From positions 1 through 34,784 of the forward strand of contig SLNR01000167.1 in assembly GCA_007132905.1 (NCBI GenBank): a stretch of DNA of 34,784 nt, read 5' to 3'. The stretch is from Candidatus Sumerlaeota bacterium (GTDB lineage Bacteria > Bacillota > SLNR01). Below the pieces are notes generated by a model. That model had not been told where the DNA came from and searched no databases. It saw nothing but the letters and a program-made list of their open reading frames with translations. Below, in pieces: positions 4,332-20,126 of the stretch (position 1 is the stretch's first letter; each line of letters begins with the position of its first letter). Position numbers and translations under genes: made by a program.

Positions 4332-4350
4332 TGCTCATCAATGATGAGTA
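4332..4350. promoter_or_regulatory. Palindrome upstream of the B12/PLP gene cluster (operator candidate)
   Basis: CTCATC (4334-4339) and GATGAG (4343-4348) form a perfect inverted repeat around the 3-base centre AAT, with one more outer T-A pair at 4332/4350. It sits 21 bases before the start of the 148-aa protein gene. A dimeric repressor such as the FCD-family regulator encoded at 6448 could bind here; this is inference from position and symmetry. Confidence 0.35.
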
Positions 4351-4370: not shown

Positions 4371-4817
4371 ATGGGGAAAGATCCATATGAATCCGGTCTG
4401 CTTAAGAAAAGCCCTTACGTTTCCAAAGAAACTGTGTTTGCTAAAGTGGTGGCAATTTTGGATTTTGCTTCTGAAGAAAGGGGACTTAAATTGATTAGTC
4501 AGCCTTCCAGGGCAGTCCGCGAAGGAGATGTACACGAACTTATTATTACCAGCGATAAAAGTGCCTCGCCCGGCGGCTGTGTCAATGAAGTTTCCTATAT
4601 CGCGTTTGTTAAAGTCCAAAACAGCGGTGTTATCCTCAAAAATGATGTTGTTAAGCACAATGGCAAAAGAATGGGAACTTTGGCTGGTTTTGATGAAACC
4701 CATATGCCTAATCATCAAAATATTCTGCTGTACTCACCGGATAGAATTTCAAGCCGTCAACTAGGAATACAATTGGGAGATATGATCTCTTTTGGAATGG
4801 AAAACGAAAATAAATAA
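4371..4817 (+). CDS. Conserved-looking protein of unknown function, first gene of the B12/PLP cluster
   Basis: The 148-residue product is soluble, with no signal peptide or membrane segment. I do not recognise a domain of known function. Conserved-looking features are the central SPGGCVNEVSY, with a single Cys in a glycine-rich turn, the GDVHELIIT strand, and a C-terminal ISSRQLGIQLGDMISFG. The alternation of beta strands suggests a compact beta-rich fold. ATG 4371 has the SD AAAGGGGGAG at 4357-4366; an upstream ATG at 4341 lacks one. The PLP enzyme starts 18 bases after its stop, so the two are almost certainly co-translated. A role as small subunit or substrate-handling partner of that enzyme is possible but unproven. 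Confidence 0.75.
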   Translation: MGKDPYESGLLKKSPYVSKETVFAKVVAILDFASEERGLKLISQPSRAVREGDVHELIITSDKSASPGGCVNEVSYIAFVKVQNSGVILKNDVVKHNGKRMGTLAGFDETHMPNHQNILLYSPDRISSRQLGIQLGDMISFGMENENK

Positions 4818-4835
4818 TGGCAGGAGGTTGGTAAA

Positions 4836-6299
4836 ATGAGTGATTTTACATTTAAGTATCAGATGTATAAAAGTTTACAAGAAAACATACCCAATATCTA
4901 TGAGGACTTGCGGAAAGAAGCAAATGAGATTGGAATACCCCATGATCTCAAAGGGCGGTTCGGTTTGACGGGTGCAATCTCGGGATGCCCCGCCCCTCTT
5001 AGAAAAGACATCATGGAAGCTGGCGAAAAAACGGCAACTCAAGTTATTCCATTGAAAAACATGGTAGATGAAATAAGAGAGATTGTTAAAAGTGTATATG
5101 GTGACGAATATGATGCTGCTCCATTAAGTACATGTGAGGCGGGATTGTGGGTGTCTTTTGATTCCCTCTGCACACCGCCCATGCAGGGACGGGGAGATAA
5201 CTATAGAACCCGATATATCGCTCCTTATGAAAAACACCTTCATCACCAAGGAAGTTATGGACGGCCTTATCCACCCAAATATAAGGATATTTTTGCCGAT
5301 CGTGGTTCAACTTCCGGAGAGCTGGGGTTTGCCGGAAAAAGACAAGAAAACATGGACGCAGTGATAGTTCCTCTGGTAGGAGCTAATTATGATGTGCACG
5401 GGATTAAATATCACCCGGTTCCCCTTCTGAGCGAAGTGGACGCGGAGGCTTCAGGAAAGCGGATCAGTGATATTGTGCAGATGCATCAGAACATGGTCAC
5501 CGGTTTTACTTCTTTAGGTTATGATACGCCCGGGTATGGCTACAAAGATAAAGATGCGGACGGTACACCTGTTTTACAAAAGAAAATTGCCGAAGAAGCA
5601 CATAAGCTGAATGTTCCGTACATTATCGACAATGCCTGGGGAATTCCCTTTGTAGGGACAGATATCCGGAAAACAGGTGCCGATGTGATGATATTCAGCA
5701 TGGATAAAGCTACCGGAGCACCAACTAGCGGATTAATCATCGGCAAAGAAGATGTCATGGTGTCAATCAGAAGAGCATTGGGCATGCACGGTGAGCGCTG
5801 GGGAACTCCCAATTCATATGGAAAAGCTGCCTATGTAGGCTTTGATCCGGGCAAAGAGGCTTTAGCGGGCCAAATAGCAGCACTCCAAGTGCTCCGTGAC
5901 CAGCCGGATGTCCTTAAACAACCTGTTGATGACATGTTTGAAATTATCAAGGACGAGTTTTCAAAGATCCATCCAGATCTGCAAAAAGGGATCATAATTT
6001 CTAAAACTTACAACTCGACAGCGATTGAAGTAAATTATGAAGGAACATGGTCTGAGGGTCATATGGGCATCCCCATATTTACGATTGAAGATATGTATTC
6101 AGGAACGAACCTGTTCCAATCAGGCTTGGCACAAATGGGAATCATTCCTACTGTTGCCTACGACGCCAACATTTTCATTTCACCGGGGTTGGGAACAACA
6201 GATGAGCATGGCCAAGTTGTGGAAGAGAAAGCTAGAAAGGCCGTGCGCGGCCTGGTGAGGACGATGGAAATTGTCTCTGAGTATGCAGGAATAATCTAG
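4836..6299 (+). CDS. Fold-type-I PLP-dependent enzyme of unassigned reaction
   Basis: The 487-residue protein has the hallmarks of the aspartate aminotransferase fold. IIDNAWG supplies the Asp that pairs with the pyridine nitrogen (D265). FSMDKATGAPTSG follows 26 residues later, with the probable Schiff-base lysine K291 and a glycine-rich turn. The layout resembles the SelA/SepSecS and cysteine-desulfurase-like branches more than classical transaminases. The N-terminal GRFGLTGAISGCPAPL and the GRGDNYRTRYIAPYEKH segment are distinctive and may form the substrate pocket. I cannot assign the reaction. It has a strong SD (AGGAGG) and lies 18 bases after the 148-aa gene. Its genomic partners are a cobalamin-dependent mutase and a P-loop NTPase, so a role in amino-acid rearrangement or breakdown is the leading inference. 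Confidence 0.85.
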   Translation: MSDFTFKYQMYKSLQENIPNIYEDLRKEANEIGIPHDLKGRFGLTGAISGCPAPLRKDIMEAGEKTATQVIPLKNMVDEIREIVKSVYGDEYDAAPLSTCEAGLWVSFDSLCTPPMQGRGDNYRTRYIAPYEKHLHHQGSYGRPYPPKYKDIFADRGSTSGELGFAGKRQENMDAVIVPLVGANYDVHGIKYHPVPLLSEVDAEASGKRISDIVQMHQNMVTGFTSLGYDTPGYGYKDKDADGTPVLQKKIAEEAHKLNVPYIIDNAWGIPFVGTDIRKTGADVMIFSMDKATGAPTSGLIIGKEDVMVSIRRALGMHGERWGTPNSYGKAAYVGFDPGKEALAGQIAALQVLRDQPDVLKQPVDDMFEIIKDEFSKIHPDLQKGIIISKTYNSTAIEVNYEGTWSEGHMGIPIFTIEDMYSGTNLFQSGLAQMGIIPTVAYDANIFISPGLGTTDEHGQVVEEKARKAVRGLVRTMEIVSEYAGII

Positions 6300-6305
6300 C
6301 AGAAC

Positions 6306-6338
6306 TGGCCAGCTGATTTGAACGACATCGGCTGGCCA
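6306..6338 (+). terminator. 12-bp hairpin after the PLP enzyme gene
   Basis: Bases 6306-6317 pair with 6327-6338 (one G-T wobble) around a 9-base loop, just 6 bases after the stop codon. The G+C-rich stem suits a terminator, but the following sequence has only a weak T tract (ACTTACATATTT). It could instead be an RNA-processing element or an operator for the regulator gene downstream. Confidence 0.4.
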
Positions 6339-6447
6339 ACTTACATATTTGACATAGCGGTGCAGCCTTATTCCATCTGGAGGAAGTTCTCCCTTTATTT
6401 ACCCTTTTTATTTTTTTATCAGCATCGCCAGGATAGGGGGTGAATAT

Positions 6448-7191
6448 ATGCTTTCAAAAAAGCAAGAGCAAGAACACCACGTCTTAAGAGCATTGAATAA
6501 TTCCAAAGAGCCTATTGGCTCGGGTGGTATCTGCGAAGAGCTGCGGTTATCCGGTTATGAAACGAGCGAAGCCACAGCCGGACGGCTTTTAAGAGGTTAT
6601 GACCAGCAGGGATTTACCTATCGTGTAGGCTATCGCGGGCGTCGATTAACAGATAAAGGAAAGGCGAGACTTGAAGAGCTAAACATGGAAAAGGAGCGGG
6701 CCCGTTTTGGAAATGAATTGATCAATACCCTTAAAGCGCAGAACCGGGAAGAGCTGATCGATATTTTGATTGCCCGTCGGGTCATCGAAAAGGAGACGGC
6801 CAGACTAGCAGCTCTTAATGCTTCCTCAAAAGACTATGAACAGCTGCGAAAAATTGTTGCACGTCACGATACTTTGAATCAAAAGGGGCGAGGAGGGGCA
6901 GAAGAAGATATACAGTTCCACCGATTAATCGGAAAAATGGCCGGAAATAAGGTGCTTATGGCTGCTATGGATTTAATCCGGCAAGACGGCCAGTTATCTC
7001 CTGTTTTCGAATATATTAGAAAGCATGTGAAAAGCAGTGTTGTTTCAGACCATAAGAAAATCCTGCATGCGATTGAAAGTAAAAAACCGGACCGAGCTGA
7101 AGTGGCTATGATTGAGCATATAAACAATATTATTGAAGATGTGGAAGAATACTGGTCTTCTGCTGACAGATCTAAGTACGCCAGTCTTTAA
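6448..7191 (+). CDS. Transcriptional regulator: RNase R/NrpR-type winged helix fused to an FCD ligand domain
   Basis: The 247-residue protein has an N-terminal DNA-binding region (about residues 1-72). Its pattern, LRALNNSKEPIGSGGICEEL then SEATAGRLLRGYDQQGFTYR and GRRLTDKGKARLEEL, resembles the HTH_12 winged helix of NrpR-like regulators rather than a GntR domain. Residues about 85-240 form an FCD-type all-helical ligand domain with the metal-binding pattern D154/H158 (DIQFH), H202 (SDHKKIL) and H224 (EHINN). FCD domains usually sense small organic acids. It lies inside the B12/PLP cluster between the PLP enzyme and the mutase, so it probably controls these genes in response to the substrate or a product. 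The SD is GGGGGTG before ATG 6448. Confidence 0.85.
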   Translation: MLSKKQEQEHHVLRALNNSKEPIGSGGICEELRLSGYETSEATAGRLLRGYDQQGFTYRVGYRGRRLTDKGKARLEELNMEKERARFGNELINTLKAQNREELIDILIARRVIEKETARLAALNASSKDYEQLRKIVARHDTLNQKGRGGAEEDIQFHRLIGKMAGNKVLMAAMDLIRQDGQLSPVFEYIRKHVKSSVVSDHKKILHAIESKKPDRAEVAMIEHINNIIEDVEEYWSSADRSKYASL

Positions 7192-7224
7192 CTAAGCTTT
7201 GGAAATCATAAAGAGGTGATCAAT

Positions 7225-7449
7225 TTGAACAGGACACTCAAAAATTCACTCATTGACGCCATCGATGTGGAAACTTTTATCTCGTGCTCGAATGAAGAAG
7301 AGGCAAAAAACATCATGCTATCTTTTCTCAAAGAAATAGGCTTTGTGGATTCTGATATCGTGTTTGTTGAACACCAGGGCTTAGGAGCACGGGTAAGAGC
7401 TAGAGGATATGCTTATAAGCCTGGCGATACATATGGATGGTTAGAATGA
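7225..7449 (+). CDS. Small 74-aa protein preceding the cobalamin-dependent mutase
   Basis: The product is a short soluble protein without Cys-rich, membrane or signal features beyond a single Cys. It has an acidic helical first half (SNEEEAKNIMLSFLKEIGF) and a C-terminal strand/turn region rich in Gly and Arg (HQGLGARVRARGYAYKPG). I do not recognise the family; it does not look like the small ornithine aminomutase subunit OraS or the B12-binding small subunit of glutamate mutase. The chosen TTG start has the extended SD AGAGGTGATC ending just upstream; GTG 7216 lies inside that SD. Only 27 bases separate its stop from the chosen mutase start, so it may be a small subunit or assembly partner. 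Confidence 0.65.
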   Translation: MNRTLKNSLIDAIDVETFISCSNEEEAKNIMLSFLKEIGFVDSDIVFVEHQGLGARVRARGYAYKPGDTYGWLE

Positions 7450-7476
7450 ATTATTTTGAATCAGGGGGTGATGAAA

Positions 7477-9321
7477 GTGCCGGCAGCGGAAGAAAAAAAG
7501 AAAATATTACTAGCTCCTTTAGATCCAGTTCATGATATTGGCTTAAAAATGATTCGAAATGAACTTAGCCAATTTGGGCATGAAGCCATTCTACTGCCTC
7601 CTGATTATTCTCCTCAAGAAATCATAAAAATTGCGTCGGATGACCGCTTTGATTTTATTATGATCAGCCGAACTTTGGGATATGGAGTAGCTGAGATCCT
7701 CGGAGAATTCATTGATTTGGCCGATGCCGCTGGAATTAGAGAGGAAACGGCTATAGTTATTGGAGGGATGGCTATTCGGCCTGAACTTGCGGCGGAGATT
7801 GGTTTTGATGCCGGCTTCGGTCCGGGAACAGATCCTGCACAAGTTAGGGCTTATGTTGAAAACAAGTCATATGTGGCAGTTGAACAGAAAGCACAGAAGA
7901 AAAAAAAGGATTTAACGGAAAGTTCATCATATAAGTATCGTAATGAACATATTGCCTCATTATTAGATGAGATTGTTGATGGAATCCTTACTTGGAGTCA
8001 TGGAAAAAAATCCCCTGGAATTGAGCGGTCAAAACTTAGGAGAGAGTACATTCAATCTCAAAAATATCCTGAGAATTCTGATCGCAGCCAAAATTTTTCT
8101 GCTGAGAAAAAAGAATATTTTGATCACTGCAGCAAATCAGCCCATGATTTTTATAAAAGCGGTGTACTTCCAAGCAAAACTCGCTCTCTTAGCAGCACAG
8201 AGCAGGATGCTTTAGATGAAATGGTAAAGAAATTTGAAGACAAAGGCTCCTGCAAAACAATACAGCATCATGAGAAACAGCCCAAAGTGTTTGTGCAGTA
8301 CGGAACAGGTTGTCCTTTCATGGATGTAATGCATATCAAGCTGAGCGAATCTTGGGGAGCCGACGGAATGCTCCATTTCGATCCATCTTGGGGGGCGAGA
8401 ACCGAAGGTCTGTTAGAAGGGATGATAGCCCATCAAGAAGATGGCTCAGTAATCACTTATGAAAATCTAAAAACGATAAGAAGGATGACAGAAGAAAGCA
8501 CCCTCTGGTCTGTGAGGGCCCATAGAGGACTAAACACCCCTGAGACGGTGGTGCTAGCGGGCGAGACAGGTGCCGACCTTACCAAGATAAACATTGTTTA
8601 TGGATCATTAGGTGCAGGAACAGATCCGGAACGTCTTACGGTGGATGGAATAGAATCCATTCGCCTTGCTGCTGATTACAAACTTCCGTTTGATATCCCC
8701 ACCAACGAGGAACTTTGCGGTGTGCCTGCCTACAAAGCTTTTGCAGGCATGTTAATTGTGGCTCATCTAGGCATTAGACTGGGCGCAAAACCGCTGTTAA
8801 AGCCTCTGTTTTGCTACTCGCCAGAAGTGATGATCAACGGCCAGATGAATGAAAATTATGTAGATTACAATGCTGCCAAAGTGCTGGCACTTTCGAGAAT
8901 ATCTGATATTCCTATTTGGCCGGGAGAACCAATCGGTTTTTTGACTCACAGTGAAGACCGGGTACAGTCATCTGTCACAACGTCCCTACATGCCGCGCTT
9001 GCATCGTCACTACGAGTTCCGGCCATTTCAATTGCTTCATCCGATGAGGCTTACTCGGGAGGGTCGATCACATCAGCCGCTCGGATTGATACACTTCGAG
9101 CTGTGGAAGAAGCCTTTCGGTTTTATGGTGATTCAACGATAGCTTTTTCGGATAAAGCGAATAGCTGGGCAGACGAGATCGAGAAAAATATAATAAAAGT
9201 CTTGCAAAAAGTAGCGCGGGCTGATTCATTTGTCGACGCAATGTATGATGGGATTCTTGGCAGCAAAGAAGACGGGGCCTACCCGGGAAGAACAGGGCGA
9301 AACACTGTAATAAAATCATAG
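7477..9321 (+). CDS. Cobalamin-dependent mutase-like enzyme (N-terminal B12 domain + glutamate-mutase-E-like barrel)
   Basis: The 614-residue protein starts with a B12-binding Rossmann domain (about residues 8-130). It contains LDPVHDIG (D16, H19, G22; lower-ligand His), an SxL-type motif in MISRTLGYG, and a GG motif in VIGGMAIRPE. A charged linker (about 135-265) leads to a catalytic-barrel-like region (about 269-600) beginning VFVQYGTGCPFMDV. That region resembles the QHGT start of the glutamate mutase E subunit and continues with NIVYGSLGAGTDPERL and FDIPTNEELCG. It probably carries out an adenosylcobalamin radical carbon-skeleton rearrangement. The substrate is unknown. GTG 7477 follows the extended SD AGGGGGTGAT at 7463-7472; ATG 7471 overlaps it and TTG 7456 precedes it. 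No clear PLP lysine is seen, so an aminomutase is less likely but not excluded. Confidence 0.82.
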   Translation: MPAAEEKKKILLAPLDPVHDIGLKMIRNELSQFGHEAILLPPDYSPQEIIKIASDDRFDFIMISRTLGYGVAEILGEFIDLADAAGIREETAIVIGGMAIRPELAAEIGFDAGFGPGTDPAQVRAYVENKSYVAVEQKAQKKKKDLTESSSYKYRNEHIASLLDEIVDGILTWSHGKKSPGIERSKLRREYIQSQKYPENSDRSQNFSAEKKEYFDHCSKSAHDFYKSGVLPSKTRSLSSTEQDALDEMVKKFEDKGSCKTIQHHEKQPKVFVQYGTGCPFMDVMHIKLSESWGADGMLHFDPSWGARTEGLLEGMIAHQEDGSVITYENLKTIRRMTEESTLWSVRAHRGLNTPETVVLAGETGADLTKINIVYGSLGAGTDPERLTVDGIESIRLAADYKLPFDIPTNEELCGVPAYKAFAGMLIVAHLGIRLGAKPLLKPLFCYSPEVMINGQMNENYVDYNAAKVLALSRISDIPIWPGEPIGFLTHSEDRVQSSVTTSLHAALASSLRVPAISIASSDEAYSGGSITSAARIDTLRAVEEAFRFYGDSTIAFSDKANSWADEIEKNIIKVLQKVARADSFVDAMYDGILGSKEDGAYPGRTGRNTVIKS

Positions 9322-9334
9322 GAGGGAAATCCTC

Positions 9335-10411
9335 TTGAAAGTAATAGGGATAATCGGTACGGCAAAAAACACAGGTAAAACAACCACCCTCCAATGTTTG
9401 CTAGAAGAAGCAGTCAAAGACAACGATTTGAAAATTGGCGTTACTAGCATAGGATACGATGGGGAATGGATTGATAGTATCACGGGCTTGCCTAAACCGA
9501 GGCTTTATGTTCAAGAGGATACATACATTGCAACCGCTTCTCAATGCCTGGAAAAAAGCAGCTGCGCTGTTAAAAAACTGGTCACAACGGATATTTTAAC
9601 CCCGTTGGGACCAGTAGTGATTGCGCAAGTCGAAAAAGAGGGCCTGCTAATGACGGCCGGTCCAAATAAGAGCTCTGATGTAAAGGAATTAATTGCACTC
9701 ATGAAAAAGTTCGATTGTGATATTTTTTTCATAGATGGGGCACTGAACAGAGTCATACCCTTTGGAGCCTCTGATGCGATCGTTGTGGCAACAGGAGCTG
9801 CGAAAAATCAAAACATAACGCAGTTAGCACTAGAAACAAAAAATTTGGTTAATGTTTTGACTTATGACTTTGAGATGGATAATGAGGATTTTGATTATCA
9901 TAAAGAGGGAATTTGCATTTTTTCCCGGGATCAAAAACCAATTCAGCTTTCTTTTTCTTCTTTGCTTACACGGGAGCACTCAGATGCACTTATAAAGACA
10001 GTTAATTCAAGCACAGCTGTCATTTATATTCCGGGTGCGCTTTTATGGGATCCATTGACCTGTTTGGTAAAGGGAGTACCTCAATCGAATCAAAAGAAGA
10101 CCATTGTCTTGCCTCACAATCTTACTTTGGTCCTTTCCGGGGATTTAAAAAAAACCATGGAAGCAGTTGATATGTGGTCTGATAAAGGCTTTTCCTGGAA
10201 AGTGGTCCACAAGATTAATCTGCTGGGGATTACTTTGAATCCTTTTTATCCAAGCTACCGACCGAATAATAACCAGTATTCATCGATGTATGTCTGTGCC
10301 GGGGAGCTTAATCGTGAAATGAGCAGGATATTATCTGTTCCTCTGTTCGATCTAAAAAGTGATGGTTGTGAAAAACTTTGGGAAAGTATTTTAACTATGA
10401 ATAAAGGGTGA
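9335..10411 (+). CDS. P-loop NTPase, candidate mutase reactivase or chaperone
   Basis: The 358-residue protein opens with a Walker A motif, IIGTAKNTGKTTTLQCLL (residues 5-22), and carries a Walker-B-like IFFIDGALNR about residues 130-139. The N-terminal half resembles SIMIBI-type NTPases. The C-terminal half (about 190-358) is unassigned. The TTG start is preceded by AGGAGGGA at 9321-9328, overlapping the mutase stop, which implies coupled expression. B12 mutases commonly need an ATP- or GTP-dependent partner to replace damaged cofactor: MeaB for methylmalonyl-CoA mutase, KamB/KamC for lysine 5,6-aminomutase. A similar role is inferred from position only. MobB-like or other cofactor functions remain possible. 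Confidence 0.75.
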   Translation: MKVIGIIGTAKNTGKTTTLQCLLEEAVKDNDLKIGVTSIGYDGEWIDSITGLPKPRLYVQEDTYIATASQCLEKSSCAVKKLVTTDILTPLGPVVIAQVEKEGLLMTAGPNKSSDVKELIALMKKFDCDIFFIDGALNRVIPFGASDAIVVATGAAKNQNITQLALETKNLVNVLTYDFEMDNEDFDYHKEGICIFSRDQKPIQLSFSSLLTREHSDALIKTVNSSTAVIYIPGALLWDPLTCLVKGVPQSNQKKTIVLPHNLTLVLSGDLKKTMEAVDMWSDKGFSWKVVHKINLLGITLNPFYPSYRPNNNQYSSMYVCAGELNREMSRILSVPLFDLKSDGCEKLWESILTMNKG

Positions 10412-11190: not shown

Positions 11191-11199
11191 GAAAAGAAA

Positions 11200-11393
11200 A
11201 AGTGTTTAGGTGCCCATAAAGGGATAATAGGGAAGTCCGAAAGCAAGTGTGCAAGTAAATCGGCGCGGTCCCGCCACTGTATACAGAGATGCGGCGCACA
11301 ATAGCCACTGCTTAACTGTGGGGTTGCAACCACGAAAAAGCGGGAAGGCAGCGCAGCAGATGATCTGGAGCCAGGAAACCTGCCTAAATACGT
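11200..11393 (+). ncRNA. Cobalamin (B12) riboswitch
   Basis: The leader contains the standard landmarks: TTTAGGTGCCC at the 5' side, GGGAAGTCCG near 11231, GCGCGGTCCCGCCACTGT near 11263-11280, and the B12 box GAGCCAGGAAACCTGCC near 11369-11384. Closing stem P1 can form between 11202-11210 and 11383-11391 (9 bp with one wobble). It senses adenosylcobalamin or a related cobalamin and lowers expression of the genes that follow, here btuF-btuC-btuD-cobO, when the cofactor is plentiful. Confidence 0.95.
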
Positions 11394-11454
11394 ACCAAAG
11401 AACCTTCGTTGGAAAGGGGGCGTGTGATTATATCAGTTGAGAAGGATTTTACTG

Positions 11455-11517: not shown

Positions 11518-12471
11518 ATGAAAAGTTCTATTAAACGCTCAATCAAAACTATTTTGATAGTGATCATAGCAGCGCAGTTGATTTTGCTTTCTGGCTGTGG
11601 ACTATTCGATAATGGAGTAGGTACCACAAACGGGGACACTTTTCCCATGACAATTGTTGATGATGCCAACAGAGAAGTTACTGTACATGATAAGCCGGAA
11701 AGGATTGTAAGTTTTGCACCGGCTCACACAGAAACTCTTTTTGCTTTGGATTTGCAAGACTATATCGTCGGAATAGATGATTATAGCGATTACCCCGTCG
11801 GAACACAGGATATTCAAAAAGCAGGCGACGCACTTAACCCAAATTATGAAGTCATCATGGAATTGGCTCCCGATATTGTTTTTACCGTCGGAACGGAGGA
11901 CTCGCCTTTGGTGGAAAGATTAGATGAGCTTGGAATCACATGTGTCGTATTGCAGGCAGAATCCCTGCAGAGCGTTTTTGATGATATGCTGATAATTGGC
12001 CGCCTCACCGGGAAGACAGAAGAAGCAGAAGCTCTTGTAAACGAGCTGCTAGCACAAGTAAACGAAATTGAAAATAGAGTAAAAGATTTGCCGGAGGAGG
12101 ATAAAGTGACTGTTTTTTACGAGCTGTCACCACCCGGTACCTGGGGTTTGTGGACTATCGGCCCGGACTCTTTCATTCACGATCTGATTCAAATTGCCGG
12201 CGGTATTAATGTGGCAGGTGAAGAGGACGGAGACTATTTCAGCTATAGCGAAGAGATGCTCATTGAAAAAGATCCTATGGTGATTATTACCCCGAATCCG
12301 CAATCGCCCGGTGAAATCGAAGAAGGAAACAGACCTAGCTGGGAGACCATTGAGGCGGTAAGAAGCAAAAGGGTTTATCTGGTTGATCAAGATGTAGTGT
12401 CCCGGCCGGGTCCGCGGGTAGTAACGGGGCTTAAAGAGATTTCAAAAGCTTTGTATCCTAAGCGAGAATAA
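11518..12471 (+). CDS. btuF: Cobalamin ABC transporter substrate-binding lipoprotein
   Basis: The 317-residue protein has a lipoprotein signal: basic start, hydrophobic core and lipobox LLSGC with C27. It therefore sits on the outer face of the membrane. The rest is a class III periplasmic-binding-protein fold, with FPMTIVDDANREVTVHDKPERIVSFAPAHTE-type strand order near residues 42-75, a long central helix (about 170-195) and ELSPPGTWG in the second lobe. Members bind corrinoids or ferric siderophores/heme. The riboswitch and cobO in the same operon argue for cobalamin. Its SD AGGAGGGG lies 9 bases before ATG 11518. Confidence 0.9.
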   Translation: MKSSIKRSIKTILIVIIAAQLILLSGCGLFDNGVGTTNGDTFPMTIVDDANREVTVHDKPERIVSFAPAHTETLFALDLQDYIVGIDDYSDYPVGTQDIQKAGDALNPNYEVIMELAPDIVFTVGTEDSPLVERLDELGITCVVLQAESLQSVFDDMLIIGRLTGKTEEAEALVNELLAQVNEIENRVKDLPEEDKVTVFYELSPPGTWGLWTIGPDSFIHDLIQIAGGINVAGEEDGDYFSYSEEMLIEKDPMVIITPNPQSPGEIEEGNRPSWETIEAVRSKRVYLVDQDVVSRPGPRVVTGLKEISKALYPKRE

Positions 12472-12534: not shown

Positions 12535-13593
12535 ATGGACACACAAGATATCAAAAAAGGGATACACAAAAAACAAAAAAACAACACAAGCATTATACTT
12601 ATTATGCTGGCTTTGCTCATAATATTAATCCCATTTTCTGCAGCTGCTGGCGCTGTAGCCATCCCTCCGTCCCAATTAATCCAAATGCTGTTGAACCAAA
12701 TTCCATTTTTGGATCTCGTTTTTGACGACAGCTGGCTGCTGTCTCATGAACAGATCTTCTTTCAAATTCGGCTGCCGCGGGTGATAATGGCTCTTTTGGT
12801 AGGATTTTCGCTGGCCTTAGCCGGAACTACTTTGCAGGGGGTTTTACAAAATCCGTTGGCGGATCCTTATCTAGTTGGCCTTTCGTCTGGGTCTGCTCTG
12901 GGGGCATCAATCGCCATTTTACTGCGAAGACAAATCGCTCTTTTCGGATATGGATCAATACCTATTTTTGCTTTTTTAGGAGGGTTGTTCAGTCTTTTCA
13001 TTGTGTATATTATTGCTAAAAGAGGAGGAAAAGTATCAACAGCAAACCTCATCTTAGCCGGCGTTGCGGTAAGCGCATTCTTTTCTGCTGTTGTATCTTT
13101 GATCATTGTGTTCCAGGGGGAGAGAATGGGGGAAATTATATTTTGGTTGATGGGCGGCTTAGCCAATGCCTCTTGGCGTTATGTTTTCGCAATTATTCCT
13201 TATATTTTAATCGGCAGTACGATCATCTTCCTTTATGCAAGACCAATCAACATCCTGGGTCTAGGCGATTCAAGTGCACATCATCTAGGCTTAGAAGTTG
13301 AATCAGTCCGCAAATTGTTACTAGCTTGTGCATCTTTAATTACGGCCGCTTCTGTTTCTGTAACAGGTTTGATCGGGTTTGTGGGTTTGATCGTGCCCCA
13401 TATGCTTAGAAGAATTATCGGTCCTGATCACCGTTTGCTTTTACTGGCTTCGGGAATAGGTGGGGCTGTTCTTCTGCTCTTAGCTGACACCATGGCACGT
13501 ACAGCCCTGTCGCCCAGGGAAATACCAGTCGGTATCATAACAGCATTAATGGGTGCGCCTTACTTTGTCTATCTTTTAAAACGAACGACTTGA
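12535..13593 (+). CDS. btuC: Cobalamin ABC transporter permease
   Basis: The 352-residue polytopic membrane protein belongs to the FecCD/BtuC permease family, normally ten helices. Typical signatures are RLPRVIMALLVGFSLALAG near residues 80-100, QNPLADPYLVGLSSGSALGA after it, and LIGFVGLIVPHMLRRIIGPDHR near residues 280-300, which contacts the ATPase. It lies 63 bases after btuF and 19 bases before the ATPase gene, giving a complete uptake system. The start ATG 12535 has only a moderate SD (GGATGTGATC) about 6 bases upstream. Confidence 0.92.
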   Translation: MDTQDIKKGIHKKQKNNTSIILIMLALLIILIPFSAAAGAVAIPPSQLIQMLLNQIPFLDLVFDDSWLLSHEQIFFQIRLPRVIMALLVGFSLALAGTTLQGVLQNPLADPYLVGLSSGSALGASIAILLRRQIALFGYGSIPIFAFLGGLFSLFIVYIIAKRGGKVSTANLILAGVAVSAFFSAVVSLIIVFQGERMGEIIFWLMGGLANASWRYVFAIIPYILIGSTIIFLYARPINILGLGDSSAHHLGLEVESVRKLLLACASLITAASVSVTGLIGFVGLIVPHMLRRIIGPDHRLLLLASGIGGAVLLLLADTMARTALSPREIPVGIITALMGAPYFVYLLKRTT

Positions 13594-13612: not shown

Positions 13613-14944
13613 ATGTCAGTCCTCTTTGAGATCCACGGTATAAAAACTGCTTACGATTCTCTGCCAGTACTGCAGGGAATCACATTTTCGATAGAAAAAG
13701 GAGATTTTGTCGGCATCGTGGGACCGAACGGATCCGGAAAATCCACTTTGATTAAAAACATGGCCAAAGTTCTCCCCTATCAAGCGGGGCGTGTTTTTTT
13801 TATGGACAAAGAACTGGAAAAGTATCGCCAGAAAGAGTTTGCAAAGAAACTAAGTGTTGTATCACAGGAACATCCGGCAGAAATCGCCTACTCGGTGTAT
13901 GATGTCGTCATGATGGGAAGGACTCCCCACTGGGGCTTTTTTCAAAAAGAGACTGTAGCTGATGAAGTGATTGTCGAGCAAGCCTTAAAACTTGCCGGAA
14001 TCAGCCATCTAAAGAAAAGGCTTGTCAGTGAGTTAAGTGGCGGAGAGAAGCAAAGAGTGTTTATTGCCCAGGCAATTGCCCAAAAGCCAGAGATTTTGCT
14101 GCTAGATGAACCTACAACTCATCTAGATATTCATTACCAGGTTGAAATAATGGATGTCATCAATAAGCTTAATGAGGATCAAAATTTAACCATCTTGGTG
14201 GTTCTTCATGATTTGAATCTTGCTTCCCAGTACTGTGATAAGGTTATTATGCTGGATCAAGGTTGTATTGCCGCCATGGGAACGCCTCAAGAAGTGATCA
14301 CCGCATCGAATATATCAAAAGTGTATAATTGCGAAGTAACTATCTCCAGCCACCCAATAACGCAAACACCTTTTGTGGCTCTGCATCCTAAGATCAACAA
14401 CCGCAATTTCAGTAGGGATCAAAACCGCTCTGTTGTCATCCATATCGTAGCCGGGGGAGGAAGTGGCTTTGAATATTTTAACATATTTAAAAGGTATGGT
14501 TATGCTGTGACAGCCGGAGTTTTAAATATGGGAGATTCTGATTGGATCGAAGCCCAAAAAAACAACATCGAATTAGTAGAAGAAGAGCCTTTTTCCCCGA
14601 TTACAGACACAAAGAAAAGGGAAAATATCATTTTGGCAGCCCAGTCTGATTTGATTGTGCTTACCGACGTTCCTTTTGGTCGCGGAAATATCGAAAATGC
14701 TCGTACTGTTGCAGAACTTGCAGAAAAAGGCAAAACCGTTTTAGTTGTTAACCAAGACAGTCTAAAAGAAAGAGATTATTCAGGAGGAATTGCCTCGAGT
14801 TGTTTAGAAAGTATCAAGGGTCTTGCAAATGTTTACCTCTGCTCAAAGAAAGACACAATTGATACGGTAAATGGCATATTAAAAGAAGGTGAGGGACATG
14901 AAAAAGAAGCTAGAAGAAGGGATGATTCAGGTCTATACGGGTAA
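13613..14944 (+). CDS. btuD: Cobalamin ABC transporter ATPase with a C-terminal extension
   Basis: Residues 1 to about 250 are a standard iron/cobalamin-type ABC ATPase: Walker A GPNGSGKST (37-45), signature LSGGEKQR (about 141), Walker B ILLLDEPTTHLD (about 161-172) and the switch His in VVLHDLN. The 443-residue length is about 180 more than a minimal BtuD. The extra part (about 262-443) begins SVVIHIVAGGGSGFE and has alternating strands and helices with a DLIVLTDVPFGRGN segment, suggesting a Rossmann-like nucleotide- or ligand-binding domain. The gene end overlaps cobO by 47 bases, so the last 15 or so residues are constrained by the cobO reading frame. Confidence 0.9.
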   Translation: MSVLFEIHGIKTAYDSLPVLQGITFSIEKGDFVGIVGPNGSGKSTLIKNMAKVLPYQAGRVFFMDKELEKYRQKEFAKKLSVVSQEHPAEIAYSVYDVVMMGRTPHWGFFQKETVADEVIVEQALKLAGISHLKKRLVSELSGGEKQRVFIAQAIAQKPEILLLDEPTTHLDIHYQVEIMDVINKLNEDQNLTILVVLHDLNLASQYCDKVIMLDQGCIAAMGTPQEVITASNISKVYNCEVTISSHPITQTPFVALHPKINNRNFSRDQNRSVVIHIVAGGGSGFEYFNIFKRYGYAVTAGVLNMGDSDWIEAQKNNIELVEEEPFSPITDTKKRENIILAAQSDLIVLTDVPFGRGNIENARTVAELAEKGKTVLVVNQDSLKERDYSGGIASSCLESIKGLANVYLCSKKDTIDTVNGILKEGEGHEKEARRRDDSGLYG

Positions 14945-15491
14945 CAGCAAAGGGAAAACCACAGCTGCCTTGGGATTAGCCTTGCGGGCAATCGGTCATC
15001 ATTTTCACATTGCCATGGTCCAGTTTCTAAAAGGCTCATCTTATGCCGGCGAAATTTTTGCTGCCGAACGACTTTACCCGCAGCTAGAGATCTACTCCTA
15101 TGGATATGAATGTCCGAGAGGTGGCATGATAAAAAGTGGCGAAACAAAATGCGTGGGCTGCATGGATTGTTTTGTCATGCCCGGAAAGATAACAGACGAG
15201 GACCGGGAAATTACTCAACTGGCAATGGATTGTGCAAAACGCGTGACAATTTCTGGAGACTACGACATCGTCATACTCGATGAAATAAGCAATCCGGTGA
15301 ATCTTGGGTTAATAGACGAGGAGGAAGTCTTAGACTTAATTGACCGAAGACCGCAGTATACAGAAATGGTCCTTACTGGAAGAAGCATGCCTGATCGGAT
15401 CATTGAAGCTGCTGACTTAGTTACAGAAATGGTAGAGATTAAACATCCCTTTCAAAAAGGCAAAACAGGACGGCGCGGCATAGAATTTTAA
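14898..15491 (+). CDS. cobO: Cob(I)alamin/cobyrinate adenosyltransferase, CobO/BtuR type
   Basis: The 197-residue enzyme transfers the adenosyl group of ATP to cob(I)alamin or its precursor, making adenosylcobalamin. The P-loop variant YTGNSKGKTTAALGLALRA lies at residues 13-31, and DYDIVILDEISNPVNLGL supplies the Mg/Walker B part. Unlike textbook BtuR, residues 72-91 hold four cysteines (C72, C85, C88, C91; ECP, then KCVGCMDCF), a possible metal site. The start is ATG 14898 with SD GAAGGTGAGGG. It overlaps btuD by 47 bases and is followed 16 bases later by a phosphatase gene. It would load incoming cobalamin for the mutase encoded upstream. Confidence 0.9.
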   Translation: MKKKLEEGMIQVYTGNSKGKTTAALGLALRAIGHHFHIAMVQFLKGSSYAGEIFAAERLYPQLEIYSYGYECPRGGMIKSGETKCVGCMDCFVMPGKITDEDREITQLAMDCAKRVTISGDYDIVILDEISNPVNLGLIDEEEVLDLIDRRPQYTEMVLTGRSMPDRIIEAADLVTEMVEIKHPFQKGKTGRRGIEF

Positions 15492-15507: not shown

Positions 15508-16122
15508 TTGTCAAATTTGCAGCTATTTGTTGTGCGTCACGGAAGTACCGTTTGGAATAGAGAAACCAGATATCAAGGCCAAAAAGATATTTCCCTCAGC
15601 GAAGAGGGGAAAGAACAGGCTGCTAAGATTTCTATTCGGTTCCAGCAAGAACCGGTTCAAGGTATTTATACAAGCCCATTGAAAAGGGCCCTGCACACAG
15701 CCGACATGATTGCAAAGCCCCACGGCATGGAAGTGGGCATTTTGCCGGGAATGAAGGAGATAGGATTTGGTGATTGGGAAGGGAAACCTTATTCAATCGT
15801 TCAGCAAGAGTATGCAGAAACTCTCAGGCACTGGATTGAAGACCCGGTTCAAAATCCCATCCCCAACGGAGAGTGTCTTAAGGATCTAAAACGACGGGTC
15901 AAATCGGCTCTGGATGAGATACTGGCCCGACATTCGACGGGAAAAGTTATTCTTGTTGGCCACAGCGGCTCGATTCGCATGATTTTTTGTATTGTGTTGA
16001 ATATGGAACTGTCTTCTTTTTGGAGAATTATGCAGTTTAATGGAGCGGTCAATTTAATACAATACAGAAACAAAACGCCTACTGTTTATGCTGTAAATGA
16101 TATCAACCATCTACAGCAGTAA
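15508..16122 (+). CDS. cobC: Histidine phosphatase family protein, probable alpha-ribazole phosphatase
   Basis: The 204-residue protein has the family's phosphohistidine motif VVRHGSTVWN (catalytic His about residue 11), the acid/Arg region IYTSPLKRALHTADMI, the EIGFGDWEGKPY motif of CobC/phosphoglycerate-mutase-like phosphatases, and the second active His in VGHSGSIRMI. It could dephosphorylate alpha-ribazole phosphate in the last steps of cobalamin assembly or salvage. Position after btuFCD-cobO supports that, though general phosphatases share these motifs, so the symbol is tentative. It starts with TTG behind a GGGGGG SD. Confidence 0.75.
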   Translation: MSNLQLFVVRHGSTVWNRETRYQGQKDISLSEEGKEQAAKISIRFQQEPVQGIYTSPLKRALHTADMIAKPHGMEVGILPGMKEIGFGDWEGKPYSIVQQEYAETLRHWIEDPVQNPIPNGECLKDLKRRVKSALDEILARHSTGKVILVGHSGSIRMIFCIVLNMELSSFWRIMQFNGAVNLIQYRNKTPTVYAVNDINHLQQ

Positions 16123-16194: not shown

Positions 16195-17784
16195 ATGTTT
16201 GATATTCTAATCAAAGACGGGATGGTCATCGATGGTTCGGGAAACCCTTGGTACAAAGCCGATATCGGCGTGAAACAGGGAAAGATTGTTTCGATAGCCC
16301 ACAGTTTAGAAGATGATCATGCAAAAGAAGTCGTGAACGCATCGGGATTGACGGTTGCGCCTGGCTTTATTGACATGCACAGTCATTCAGACCTAATGCT
16401 GTTTGAAAAGCCGGAGGCCGAAGAAAAAACAAGGCAGGGTATAACTACAGAGCTTCTTGGGCAAGATGGAATAGGAGTTGCCCCTATTAGTGAAAACAAC
16501 ATTCATAACTGGAGGCAAGTTCTCTCAGGATTGGCAGGCAATCCGGATATCAATTGGCAATGGAGAAGTTTTGGAAGTTATTTAGATGCTCTGCAGGAAC
16601 GAAAGACATCAACAAATCCGGTTGTCTTAGCTACACACGGGGCAATCAGGCAGGAAGTGGTAGGATTAGACAATCGCCAAACAACGGCAGAAGAACTGGA
16701 AGAAATGAAAAAATTAGTTGCCGAAGCGATGGAAGCGGGGGCTGTCGGTCTTTCGCTAGGACTTATCTACCTGCCTTGTTTTTATGCATCTCGAAACGAA
16801 TTAGTTGAGATGTATAGAGTTGCGGCTGCCTACAATGGTTTCATGGTGGTTCACATACGCAATGAAGCAGATTTAGCCGAAGAGGCTATGCAAGAAGTTA
16901 TTGAGATAACTCAAGAAGCGGGCGTCCCGCTTCATGTTTCTCACTTTAAAACAGCTGGCCGATCTAATTGGCATAAAAGCGAAATCATGCTCCAAATGGC
17001 CGAGGGAGCTCGAGCAAAAGGGCACGAAATTACATTTGACCAGTACCCCTACACGGCAGGAAGCACCATGTTTTTTGCTATTTTACCCCAATGGGCACTG
17101 GAAGGCGGCGCCGAAAAGATGTTAAAACGCTTAGAAGACAGGGATTTGAGGGGAAAAATCAAGGAAGACATTAAAAACGGCATTCCTGGCTGGCAAAATA
17201 TGATTAAAGATTCCGGTTGGGAGAACGTTATGATTACTTCCGTGCGAACTGAAGAAAACAAACATTTGGAAGGGAAATATATGACCGAAATTGCGGCCGA
17301 ACTCAGTAGAGATCCGGTTGAGGCAGCCATGGATTTATTAGTTGAAGAAAAAGCAGCTGTTGGAATGGCGACATTTGCACAAAGTGAAGACAATGTTAGA
17401 AAGATCCTTCAGCATGATTGCCAGATGGTCTGCACCGACGGACTTTTAGGAGGGAAACCTCATCCCCGCGTCTACGGTTCGTACCCGAAGGTTCTGGGAA
17501 AATATGTACGGGAAGAGAAAATCATAACACTACCGCAAGCCATCAGGAAAATGACGTCTTTTCCCGCGCAACGACTAGGTCTAAAAGACAGAGGAATCAT
17601 TCGGGAAGGGATGATTGCAGATATTGTTGTCTTTGATGCGGATAAAGTGATTGATAGAGCAACTTATGCCGACCCCAGACAATATCCTTTAGGGATTGAC
17701 CATGTGATGGTCAATGGCACATTCGTAATCAAAAACAGCGAGCATACAAAGAAAAAACCGGGCAAAGTACTGCGGAGGCAATGA
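16195..17784 (+). CDS. N-acyl-D-amino-acid deacylase-like amidohydrolase
   Basis: The 529-residue amidohydrolase-superfamily protein has the N-terminal metal motif FIDMHSHSD (H62, H64), further ligands in VVHIRNEAD (H220) and HVSHFKTAG (H250), and the catalytic Asp in VCTDG (D415). The overall plan is that of D-aminoacylases, which release D-amino acids from N-acyl forms. Where those enzymes have a metal-ligand Cys in VGNCG, this protein has LGQDG with Asp at residue 91, so metal content or substrate may differ. The SD TAAGGAGG is strong. The MazG-like gene follows 3 bases after the stop, then the flavin reductase-like and M20 genes, forming one probable operon. Confidence 0.85.
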   Translation: MFDILIKDGMVIDGSGNPWYKADIGVKQGKIVSIAHSLEDDHAKEVVNASGLTVAPGFIDMHSHSDLMLFEKPEAEEKTRQGITTELLGQDGIGVAPISENNIHNWRQVLSGLAGNPDINWQWRSFGSYLDALQERKTSTNPVVLATHGAIRQEVVGLDNRQTTAEELEEMKKLVAEAMEAGAVGLSLGLIYLPCFYASRNELVEMYRVAAAYNGFMVVHIRNEADLAEEAMQEVIEITQEAGVPLHVSHFKTAGRSNWHKSEIMLQMAEGARAKGHEITFDQYPYTAGSTMFFAILPQWALEGGAEKMLKRLEDRDLRGKIKEDIKNGIPGWQNMIKDSGWENVMITSVRTEENKHLEGKYMTEIAAELSRDPVEAAMDLLVEEKAAVGMATFAQSEDNVRKILQHDCQMVCTDGLLGGKPHPRVYGSYPKVLGKYVREEKIITLPQAIRKMTSFPAQRLGLKDRGIIREGMIADIVVFDADKVIDRATYADPRQYPLGIDHVMVNGTFVIKNSEHTKKKPGKVLRRQ

Positions 17785-18698: not shown

Positions 18699-20126
18699 AT
18701 GATGATGGATTCTCGCTTGATGCAGCTTGTTGTCAACGGAAAGAAAGAAGATGATAATACTTATGTCTATCATATCGATGGTGAAGACTATCTTTCCATG
18801 CGGCAGCTAGCCGACTACCTGCCTTTTGAAATGACCATCGATGAGAACACAAATGAAATTTTGATAAAGAAAAAAGATACAGATGAAGTCCCTGTCCGTA
18901 AACAGAGAGAACTTCCGGAAAAGGCTGACAAAGTCAGGTCTATGATCAAAAAATACGAAAAGCGACTTTATGAAATAAACAAGTCCATTTTTGATCATCC
19001 AGAGAAAGGGAATCAAGAGCATCATGCTTGTCAACAATTAACCAGTTTTTTAAACGAAGTTGGTTTTGAGGTTATCCAGGGTTTGGAAGGGAAAATACCG
19101 AAGGAAGATAAGGAAGTATTTCTTGATACAGCTTTTAAAGCGGTAATCAAAGGAAAAGAGCCGGGCCCCGTAATTGCCGTCATGCTCGAATACGATGCGC
19201 TTCCCATGGGACATGCGTGCGGCCATAACTTGATTGCCTCCTCCGGTATGGCAGCAGCTATAGCTCTGGCCCCCTTGATGAAGGAAGTCGCGGGTGAGCT
19301 TTGGGTCATGGGTACACCGGCAGAAGAAGGCGGCGAATATGGAGGAAAAATTCCTTTACTACACGCAGGTCAATTTGAAGGAGTCGATATAGCTCTCATT
19401 ACCCATCCAGGCGATCGCTGGGATACGGGGGCGGATTTTTTGGCAATTTCAGGCGCTCAGATTGAATTTACGGGAAAGCCTTCCCATGCTTCCGCCGCAC
19501 CTGAAAAAGGGATTAGCGCTTTGGATGCTGCGATTATTGCATACAACTCCATCGAGATGATGCGGGAACATTCACGCTCTGATGCAAGAATTCACGGAAT
19601 TATTAAAGAAGGCGGCACGGCTTCTAACATCGTTCCGGAAAGGGCGGTGCTGAGTTATGCAGTCCGCGCTTTAGATCAGCCTTATGTTGAAGTTTTAAAA
19701 TCAAAAATAGAAAACTGCGTAGAAGCAGGAGCAGTAGCGACAGGAGCACTTGGCAAAGTTGATTGGTCTTTTGGTTATAGTGCACCTATTAATGTAGCAG
19801 AACTCGATCATATGGTATTGGATTACGCAAGATTGTTGAATATTAACGAGATTAAGCAATGGGAAGCTTTGGGTTCGTCGGATTTGGGGAATATTGGTTA
19901 TGAAATCCCCACCTGTAATCTCTGGTTCAAAATTACCCCGGAAGGCGTACTTCCTCACACGCATGCATTTTTAGAAGCATCGGGCAGCAAAGATGGCTTT
20001 CAATCTGCCCTTGCAGCAGGTGAAGTATTAGCCTTTTCCGCTCTTGAATTATTTGAAAACCATGAAATGGTTTCCTTGATTCAGCAGAAGTTTCATAAAG
20101 AGAAGGAAAGTCTTTTGTCTCAATAG
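18699..20126 (+). CDS. M20-family amidohydrolase with an N-terminal stalk-like domain
   Basis: The 475-residue protein has two parts. Residues 1 to about 70 (VVNGKKEDDNTYVYHIDGEDYLSMRQLADYL and ILIKKK) look like the copper-amine-oxidase N-terminal-like 'stalk' domain common on secreted clostridial proteins. Residues about 78-460 form an M20 peptidase of the AbgB/amidohydrolase group: MLEYDALPMGHACGHN, PAEEGGEYGGK, the dimerisation-domain FTGKPSHASAAPEKGISALDA, and the late LPHTHAFLEASGS. Such enzymes cleave aminoacyl or aminobenzoyl-glutamate amide bonds. No signal peptide is present, so the stalk would be inside the cell. Three consecutive ATG codons follow the GGAGG SD; the first is used here. 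Confidence 0.85.
   Translation: MMMDSRLMQLVVNGKKEDDNTYVYHIDGEDYLSMRQLADYLPFEMTIDENTNEILIKKKDTDEVPVRKQRELPEKADKVRSMIKKYEKRLYEINKSIFDHPEKGNQEHHACQQLTSFLNEVGFEVIQGLEGKIPKEDKEVFLDTAFKAVIKGKEPGPVIAVMLEYDALPMGHACGHNLIASSGMAAAIALAPLMKEVAGELWVMGTPAEEGGEYGGKIPLLHAGQFEGVDIALITHPGDRWDTGADFLAISGAQIEFTGKPSHASAAPEKGISALDAAIIAYNSIEMMREHSRSDARIHGIIKEGGTASNIVPERAVLSYAVRALDQPYVEVLKSKIENCVEAGAVATGALGKVDWSFGYSAPINVAELDHMVLDYARLLNINEIKQWEALGSSDLGNIGYEIPTCNLWFKITPEGVLPHTHAFLEASGSKDGFQSALAAGEVLAFSALELFENHEMVSLIQQKFHKEKESLLSQ

Follow-up and report, generated by a model that had tools for sequence, protein, structure and literature searches.

The six consecutive genes at positions 4371-10411 of the window (the whole stretch of 34,784 nucleotides analyzed here) fairly likely encode an adenosylcobalamin mutase of lysine 5,6-aminomutase stock that has lost its PLP site and takes part in an amino-acid rearrangement with a PLP partner enzyme. 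Computation here shows the gene set, the co-occurrence of its members, their homologies, the retention of the B12 ligand, and the loss of PLP contacts. In the proposed scheme, the mutase would consist of a 621-aa protein and a 77-aa subunit, would depend on adenosylcobalamin, and would share ancestry with lysine 5,6-aminomutase, its own PLP site having been lost. A KamB-type reactivase would keep it active. Radical chemistry by the mutase would rearrange an amino acid in a catabolic route, and the PLP enzyme and the DUF6917 protein would handle the substrate or product by elimination, cleavage, or deamination, joined in many relatives by RidA and an FAD oxidoreductase. Induction of the module by its substrate would fall to the FCD regulator.

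To our knowledge, few B12-dependent amino-acid mutases are known. If the proposed reading is true, the module adds to their number a mutase whose domain order is unseen in the known ones compared here, and the apparent loss of the PLP site in an aminomutase-like scaffold opens the evolution of PLP dependence in the superfamily to testing. The presence of the module in about one tenth of the sampled genomes of the phylum, and in Thermotogota, Atribacteria, Treponema, and others, may point to an overlooked amino-acid route of anaerobes. Searches of the open-access literature, subscription journals being outside its scope, yielded no description of the module under DUF6917, new mutase clusters, diaminopimelate fermentation, dipicolinate fermentation, or KamB/KamC. 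The view that this is not an already described operon with a named substrate is thus upheld within that literature, and the pathway is probably new to description.

Gene set and setting in the window

All six ORFs anticipated by the earlier note are present on the forward strand. The small protein has 77 residues when counted from its GTG start, not the 74 first given. The protein taken as unrecognized has the expected 148 residues, but it matches DUF6917 (PF21891, 141.6 bits, cut-off 27) and is assigned to that family. Its relatives begin with M-x-DPY in a 27-row family alignment, which supports the start at 4371 and leaves the longer start at 4341 unsupported; a PDB profile search with it gave no match. 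The regulator carries the FCD domain at 81.5 bits and the RNase R-type winged helix at 48.8 bits in the domain search. The mutase is 50-62% identical to its relatives and the PLP enzyme 56-70%, so the genes are conserved and not chance ORFs.

Table 1. Positions in the window of the six cluster genes and of the B12-related features downstream.
Feature	Position	Strand	Length	Basis
DUF6917 protein	4371..4817	+	148 aa	PF21891
Fold-type-I PLP enzyme	4836..6299	+	487 aa	invariant K291/D265, AlphaFold, Foldseek
FCD-domain regulator, RNase R-type winged helix	6448..7191	+	247 aa	PF07729, PF08461
KamE N-terminal dimerization domain homologue	7216..7449	+	77 aa	hhalign
B12 mutase (predicted)	7456..9321	+	621 aa	profiles to KamE/KamD, Foldseek
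P-loop NTPase, KamB-type mutase reactivase	9335..10411	+	358 aa	NF052386
Cobalamin riboswitch (context, outside core)	11191..11401	+		RF00174, 92 bits, gathering score 31.5
BtuF-like	11518-12471			recognized by eye from sequence
BtuC-like	12535-13593			recognized by eye from sequence
BtuD-like	13613-14944			recognized by eye from sequence
CobO-like	14889-15491			recognized by eye from sequence
CobC-like	15508-16122			recognized by eye from sequence

The intergenic gaps across the six genes are 18, 148, 24, 6, and 13 bp, and promoter- or terminator-like sites in the cluster are no more frequent than in shuffled sequences. Housekeeping genes (ScpA, ScpB, RluB-like) flank the cluster; the RluB start lies 4 bp downstream of the last cluster gene, so the transcript may extend past 10411. 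Further downstream, the riboswitch precedes genes of B12 uptake and adenosylation, which fits a need for adenosylcobalamin; the argument is qualified by a glutamate mutase that is also encoded in the window's assembly. Two hydrolase genes lie 3' of the B12 genes, an N-acyl-D-amino-acid deacylase-like amidohydrolase (16195-17784) and an M20-type peptidase (18699-20126), and neither has a clear link to the cluster.

The predicted mutase and its cofactor sites

The 621-aa protein begins with a KamE-type B12 domain (about residues 15-135), followed by a KamD-type helical region and barrel (about residues 165-606). The B12-binding domain at its start scores 52.4 bits in a Pfam search. In hhalign comparisons, this domain aligns with the KamE profile at an E-value of 8.1e-20 and the C-terminal part aligns with KamD at 4.9e-6; the control pairs KamD-OraE and KamD-glutamate mutase give 7e-30 and 0.11, respectively. 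The AlphaFold model (pLDDT 85.5) has lysine 5,6-aminomutase alpha as its best PDB match in Foldseek (1xrs_A, E 1.1e-17, TMt 0.64), followed by OraE (E 1e-10) and glutamate mutase E (E 6e-10). The structural match and the profile alignment (hhalign E 5e-6) both assign a KamD-type barrel fold. With its B12 domain, its barrel, and the ligand histidine H26 in 105/105 sequences, the protein falls among the adenosylcobalamin-dependent isomerases in the broad sense.

The 77-aa ORF has no significant match in a Pfam-type domain search and aligns with KamE residues 40-76 in hhalign (E 3.8e-6, probability 87). Its gene lies directly upstream of the mutase gene in most loci. By the profile matches to KamE and KamD, every part of KamDE is present in the two proteins, though in a new order, and profiles and model identify the pair as a predicted rearranged enzyme of the lysine-5,6-aminomutase type. 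Two genes that had been taken as unknown, those of the 77-aa protein and the P-loop NTPase, turn out to be parts of the mutase system.

In lysine 5,6-aminomutase (LAM), the PLP ligands are K144, R184, S189, Y236, S238, Y263, R268, and N299 (PMC3958899). These positions were mapped through profile alignments and residues were counted over 105 mutase sequences; the alignments have only 13-20% identity, so individual mapped positions may be off. The K144 position, which lies in KamE 11 residues past the B12 histidine, is L in 101/105 and F, M, or V in 4, and is never K. The R184/S189 phosphate motif is replaced by HFDPS in the mutase family. The position of Y236 is A in 104/105, that of S238 is R in 105/105, that of R268 is A or G, and that of N299 is L in all 105. 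Y263 is the sole barrel PLP contact retained, as Y382 in 105/105, by a distant alignment. H26 and E531 are invariant, as is K377 (105/105), which aligns with OAM H182, a residue touching the substrate carboxylate; K377 and K427 are conserved lysines of the barrel half. The loss of the PLP lysine and of nearly all PLP contacts, together with the invariant B12 histidine, suggests that the mutase is probably PLP-independent. The simplest reading of these residue patterns is a PLP-free B12 enzyme whose pocket would now bind carboxylate groups.

It is unlikely that the mutase is still a class III PLP- and B12-dependent aminomutase shifting an amino group, its PLP held by other residues such as K377 or K427. 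There is a likeness to lysine 5,6-aminomutase in overall fold, helper subunit, and reactivase, and the position of the PLP-stacking tyrosine is kept (Y382), but the Schiff-base lysine is missing from its position in every sequence, the phosphate-binding residues are replaced, and the pyridine-nitrogen residue has become an invariant arginine.

The P-loop NTPase is assigned to the KamB reactivases (NF052386 of NCBIfam, 225.8 bits, cut-off 210), and its P-loop GTAKNTGKTT is invariant in 28 homologues; a Pfam search gives only a weak MobB match. The window's assembly holds no Lys-AminoMut_A match, so the substrate in the KamB name does not apply here, and automatic annotation would label the reactivase of the module as that of lysine aminomutase, with the wrong substrate. 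In several relatives, the neighborhood of the mutase lacks KamB. The KamB score above a curated cut-off speaks in favor of a known lysine or ornithine fermentation route with diverged subunits. Such a route is improbable: the lack of Lys-AminoMut_A in the assembly counts against it, the OraE matches in that assembly are confined to the B12 domain, and the mutase reaches only 48.1 bits with the KamE model NF052385 (cut-off 280) and 26.5 bits with the OraE model NF040743 (cut-off 800), whose barrel-to-B12 order it also lacks. Moreover, KamD coexists with the module mutase in other genomes (e.g., G074, G079, G112, G116, and G125).

The B12 domains also match corrinoid proteins of methyltransferases weakly in a profile search, as a corrinoid-binding protein of methyl transfer or sensing might. 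Such a non-mutase role is more improbable still, since a barrel of the lysine-5,6-aminomutase type follows the B12 domain in one chain, an aminomutase dimerization domain and a mutase reactivase are encoded alongside, and no methyltransferase occurs in the neighborhoods examined.

Partner genes, distribution, and substrate

The PLP enzyme has a putative Schiff-base lysine, K291 (SMDK), and an aspartate, D265 (DNAW), both invariant in 28 homologues, and a weak match to Aminotran_5 (class-V aminotransferases, 23 bits). The fold, the Schiff-base lysine, and the aspartate at the pyridine nitrogen place it in fold type I. Its AlphaFold model (pLDDT 84.9) matches SelA, Cap15, and SepCysS at E-values of about 1e-13, with a query-normalized TM of at most 0.56 among the PDB matches listed, and the model suggests that it lacks a close structural subfamily among them. 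Fold type I and a local match at the Schiff-base lysine are shared with SelA, DgaE, and the Cys/Met-metabolism enzymes, but every named family scores far below its cut-off.

In a sample of 399 genomes of the window's phylum, the full-length mutase is present in 38, the PLP enzyme in 40, and DUF6917 in 39. Both partners are present in 38/38 mutase genomes (Fisher's test, p about 1e-51 before phylogenetic correction); beyond these, one genome (G049) has only the PLP enzyme and another (G387) has a PLP enzyme fragment and DUF6917. Both also accompany the mutase in 11/11 genomes chosen from the GTDB scan described below to span lineages in several phyla, sometimes kilobases away from it. The B12- and PLP-linked cluster proposed earlier is borne out by the domain matches and this almost perfect co-occurrence, and the failure to co-occur that would have counted against it was seen in neither set. 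The housekeeping flanks and the variable gene order might point to chance co-location of genes from separate pathways. For the mutase, PLP enzyme, and DUF6917, which occur together even at a distance, the co-occurrence makes this very unlikely; the linkage of the FCD regulator and of KamB is looser. Some genomes (G037, G079, and G303) carry two full mutase copies, about 56-61% identical to that of the window, and the two copies may perhaps differ in substrate.

A scan of GTDB species genomes gave 143 relatives, of which 79 loci were kept. They come from the Bacillota genera Thermovorax, Tepidanaerobacter, Heliobacterium, Heliorestis, Sporomusa, and Desulfosporosinus; other records carry the titles Atribacteria, Thermotogota, Treponema, Candidatus Adiutrix, and Delongbacteria. 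The gene order varies between loci. Gene content was counted over 74 named loci whose mutase ORF is intact, each count being a minimum since contigs break off and the ORF calling was simple: PLP enzyme at least 60, KamB at least 58, 77-aa protein at least 58, FAD oxidoreductase at least 47, DUF6917 at least 44, FCD regulator at least 44, RidA at least 32, and transporter at least 25. The core is DUF6917, the PLP enzyme, the 77-aa protein, the mutase, and usually KamB. In Bacillota loci (L061, L098, L151, and others), dacF, spmA, spmB, and rluB often adjoin the module; as candidate pathway genes, the Bacillota neighbors dacF, spmAB, rluB, and scpAB were set aside as housekeeping context.

RidA, the FAD oxidoreductase, and the transporter are found in the clusters of relatives and are absent from that of the window. 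In many relatives RidA sits beside the PLP enzyme, which is consistent with a reaction that forms an enamine or imine. The FAD oxidoreductase resembles GidA and has conserved cysteines; it is absent from the window's own assembly (94.5% complete), so the window appears to hold a reduced version of the module and the pathway to differ among species. The transporter family (about 460 aa; L039:12146-13531 and relatives), tied to the module in the loci counted above, belongs to no Pfam family, although 2/21 match CitMHS weakly, and a PDB profile search with it gave no match.

An Rfam scan of the relatives for a substrate riboswitch found none linked to the cluster, and the clues to the substrate come from extra genes at the module in one clade of the tree (Atribacteria, UASB270, and Thermotogota). 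These genes encode TRAP transport, D-amino-acid dehydrogenase, meso-diaminopimelate dehydrogenase, and DapF. In Pseudothermotoga (L137 and L203), about 18 genes on the same strand, several named by eye, comprise RidA, DUF6917, the PLP enzyme, a multi-subunit D-amino-acid dehydrogenase, a TAXI-TRAP transporter, and an Asp/Glu racemase family member; flavoprotein and 2Fe-2S subunits, the FAD oxidoreductase, the transporter, and meso-diaminopimelate dehydrogenase; and a GltP-type symporter, DapF, the 77-aa protein, the mutase, and KamB. The in-cluster meso-diaminopimelate dehydrogenase scores 289.6 bits (cut-off 180.6) and keeps 10/10 substrate contacts in two loci and 9/10 in a third. No DapF other than the in-cluster one was found in Thermotogota, so it may be the biosynthetic enzyme. 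The DapF-like protein of UASB270 (L147:6749-7609) scores above the DapF cut-off and has serine for both catalytic cysteines; independent recruitment of DapF in UASB270 was rejected, since both cysteines are lost and the loci form one clade. In an Atribacteria locus (L207:12692-18999), dapB, dapA, aspartokinase, an aminotransferase, and dapF adjoin the module on the same strand.

Diaminopimelate is an amino acid of the bacterial cell wall. Diaminopimelate or a close diamino dicarboxylate is the leading guess for the substrate, a weak and tentative one, and the limitation of diaminopimelate-linked genes to a single clade counts against it. It is rather doubtful that the module carries out an undescribed B12-dependent breakdown of diaminopimelate, in which the PLP-free mutase would rearrange the diamino diacid and the new PLP enzyme would cleave the product. 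Dipicolinate or a proline-like substrate was also considered, in view of the D-amino-acid dehydrogenase genes of one clade, and the evidence did not single out either.

Comparison with known B12-dependent mutases

2-Methyleneglutarate mutase is a PLP-free acid mutase with a B12 domain and a barrel, and the predicted mutase may be likened to it. Glutamate mutase (MutS, MutE) likewise combines B12 and a barrel without PLP, and its H, K, and E positions are comparable to those invariant in the module mutase. It is a weaker structural match than lysine aminomutase; the module mutase has no Pfam match to PF06368 (Met_asp_mut_E), and its hhalign alignment to MutE has an E-value of 0.13.

OraS/OraE resembles the module in joining barrel and B12 domain in one chain and in its similar dimerization domain. 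In contrast, OraE has the order barrel, dimerization domain, and B12 domain, whereas the B12 domain comes first in the module mutase. A separate full OraS is lacking in the module, and an OAM_alpha match in the linker has an E-value of 0.15.

In KamD/KamE with KamB, the barrel fold, B12 domain, dimerization domain, and reactivase of the module are all represented. The subunit arrangement nevertheless differs from that of the glutamate, lysine, and ornithine mutase operons, as had been claimed at the outset. Compared to KamDE, the dimerization domain of the module is a separate 77-aa protein, the B12 domain is fused ahead of the barrel, the mapped positions lack the PLP lysine and most of the PLP contacts, and the partner genes are different.
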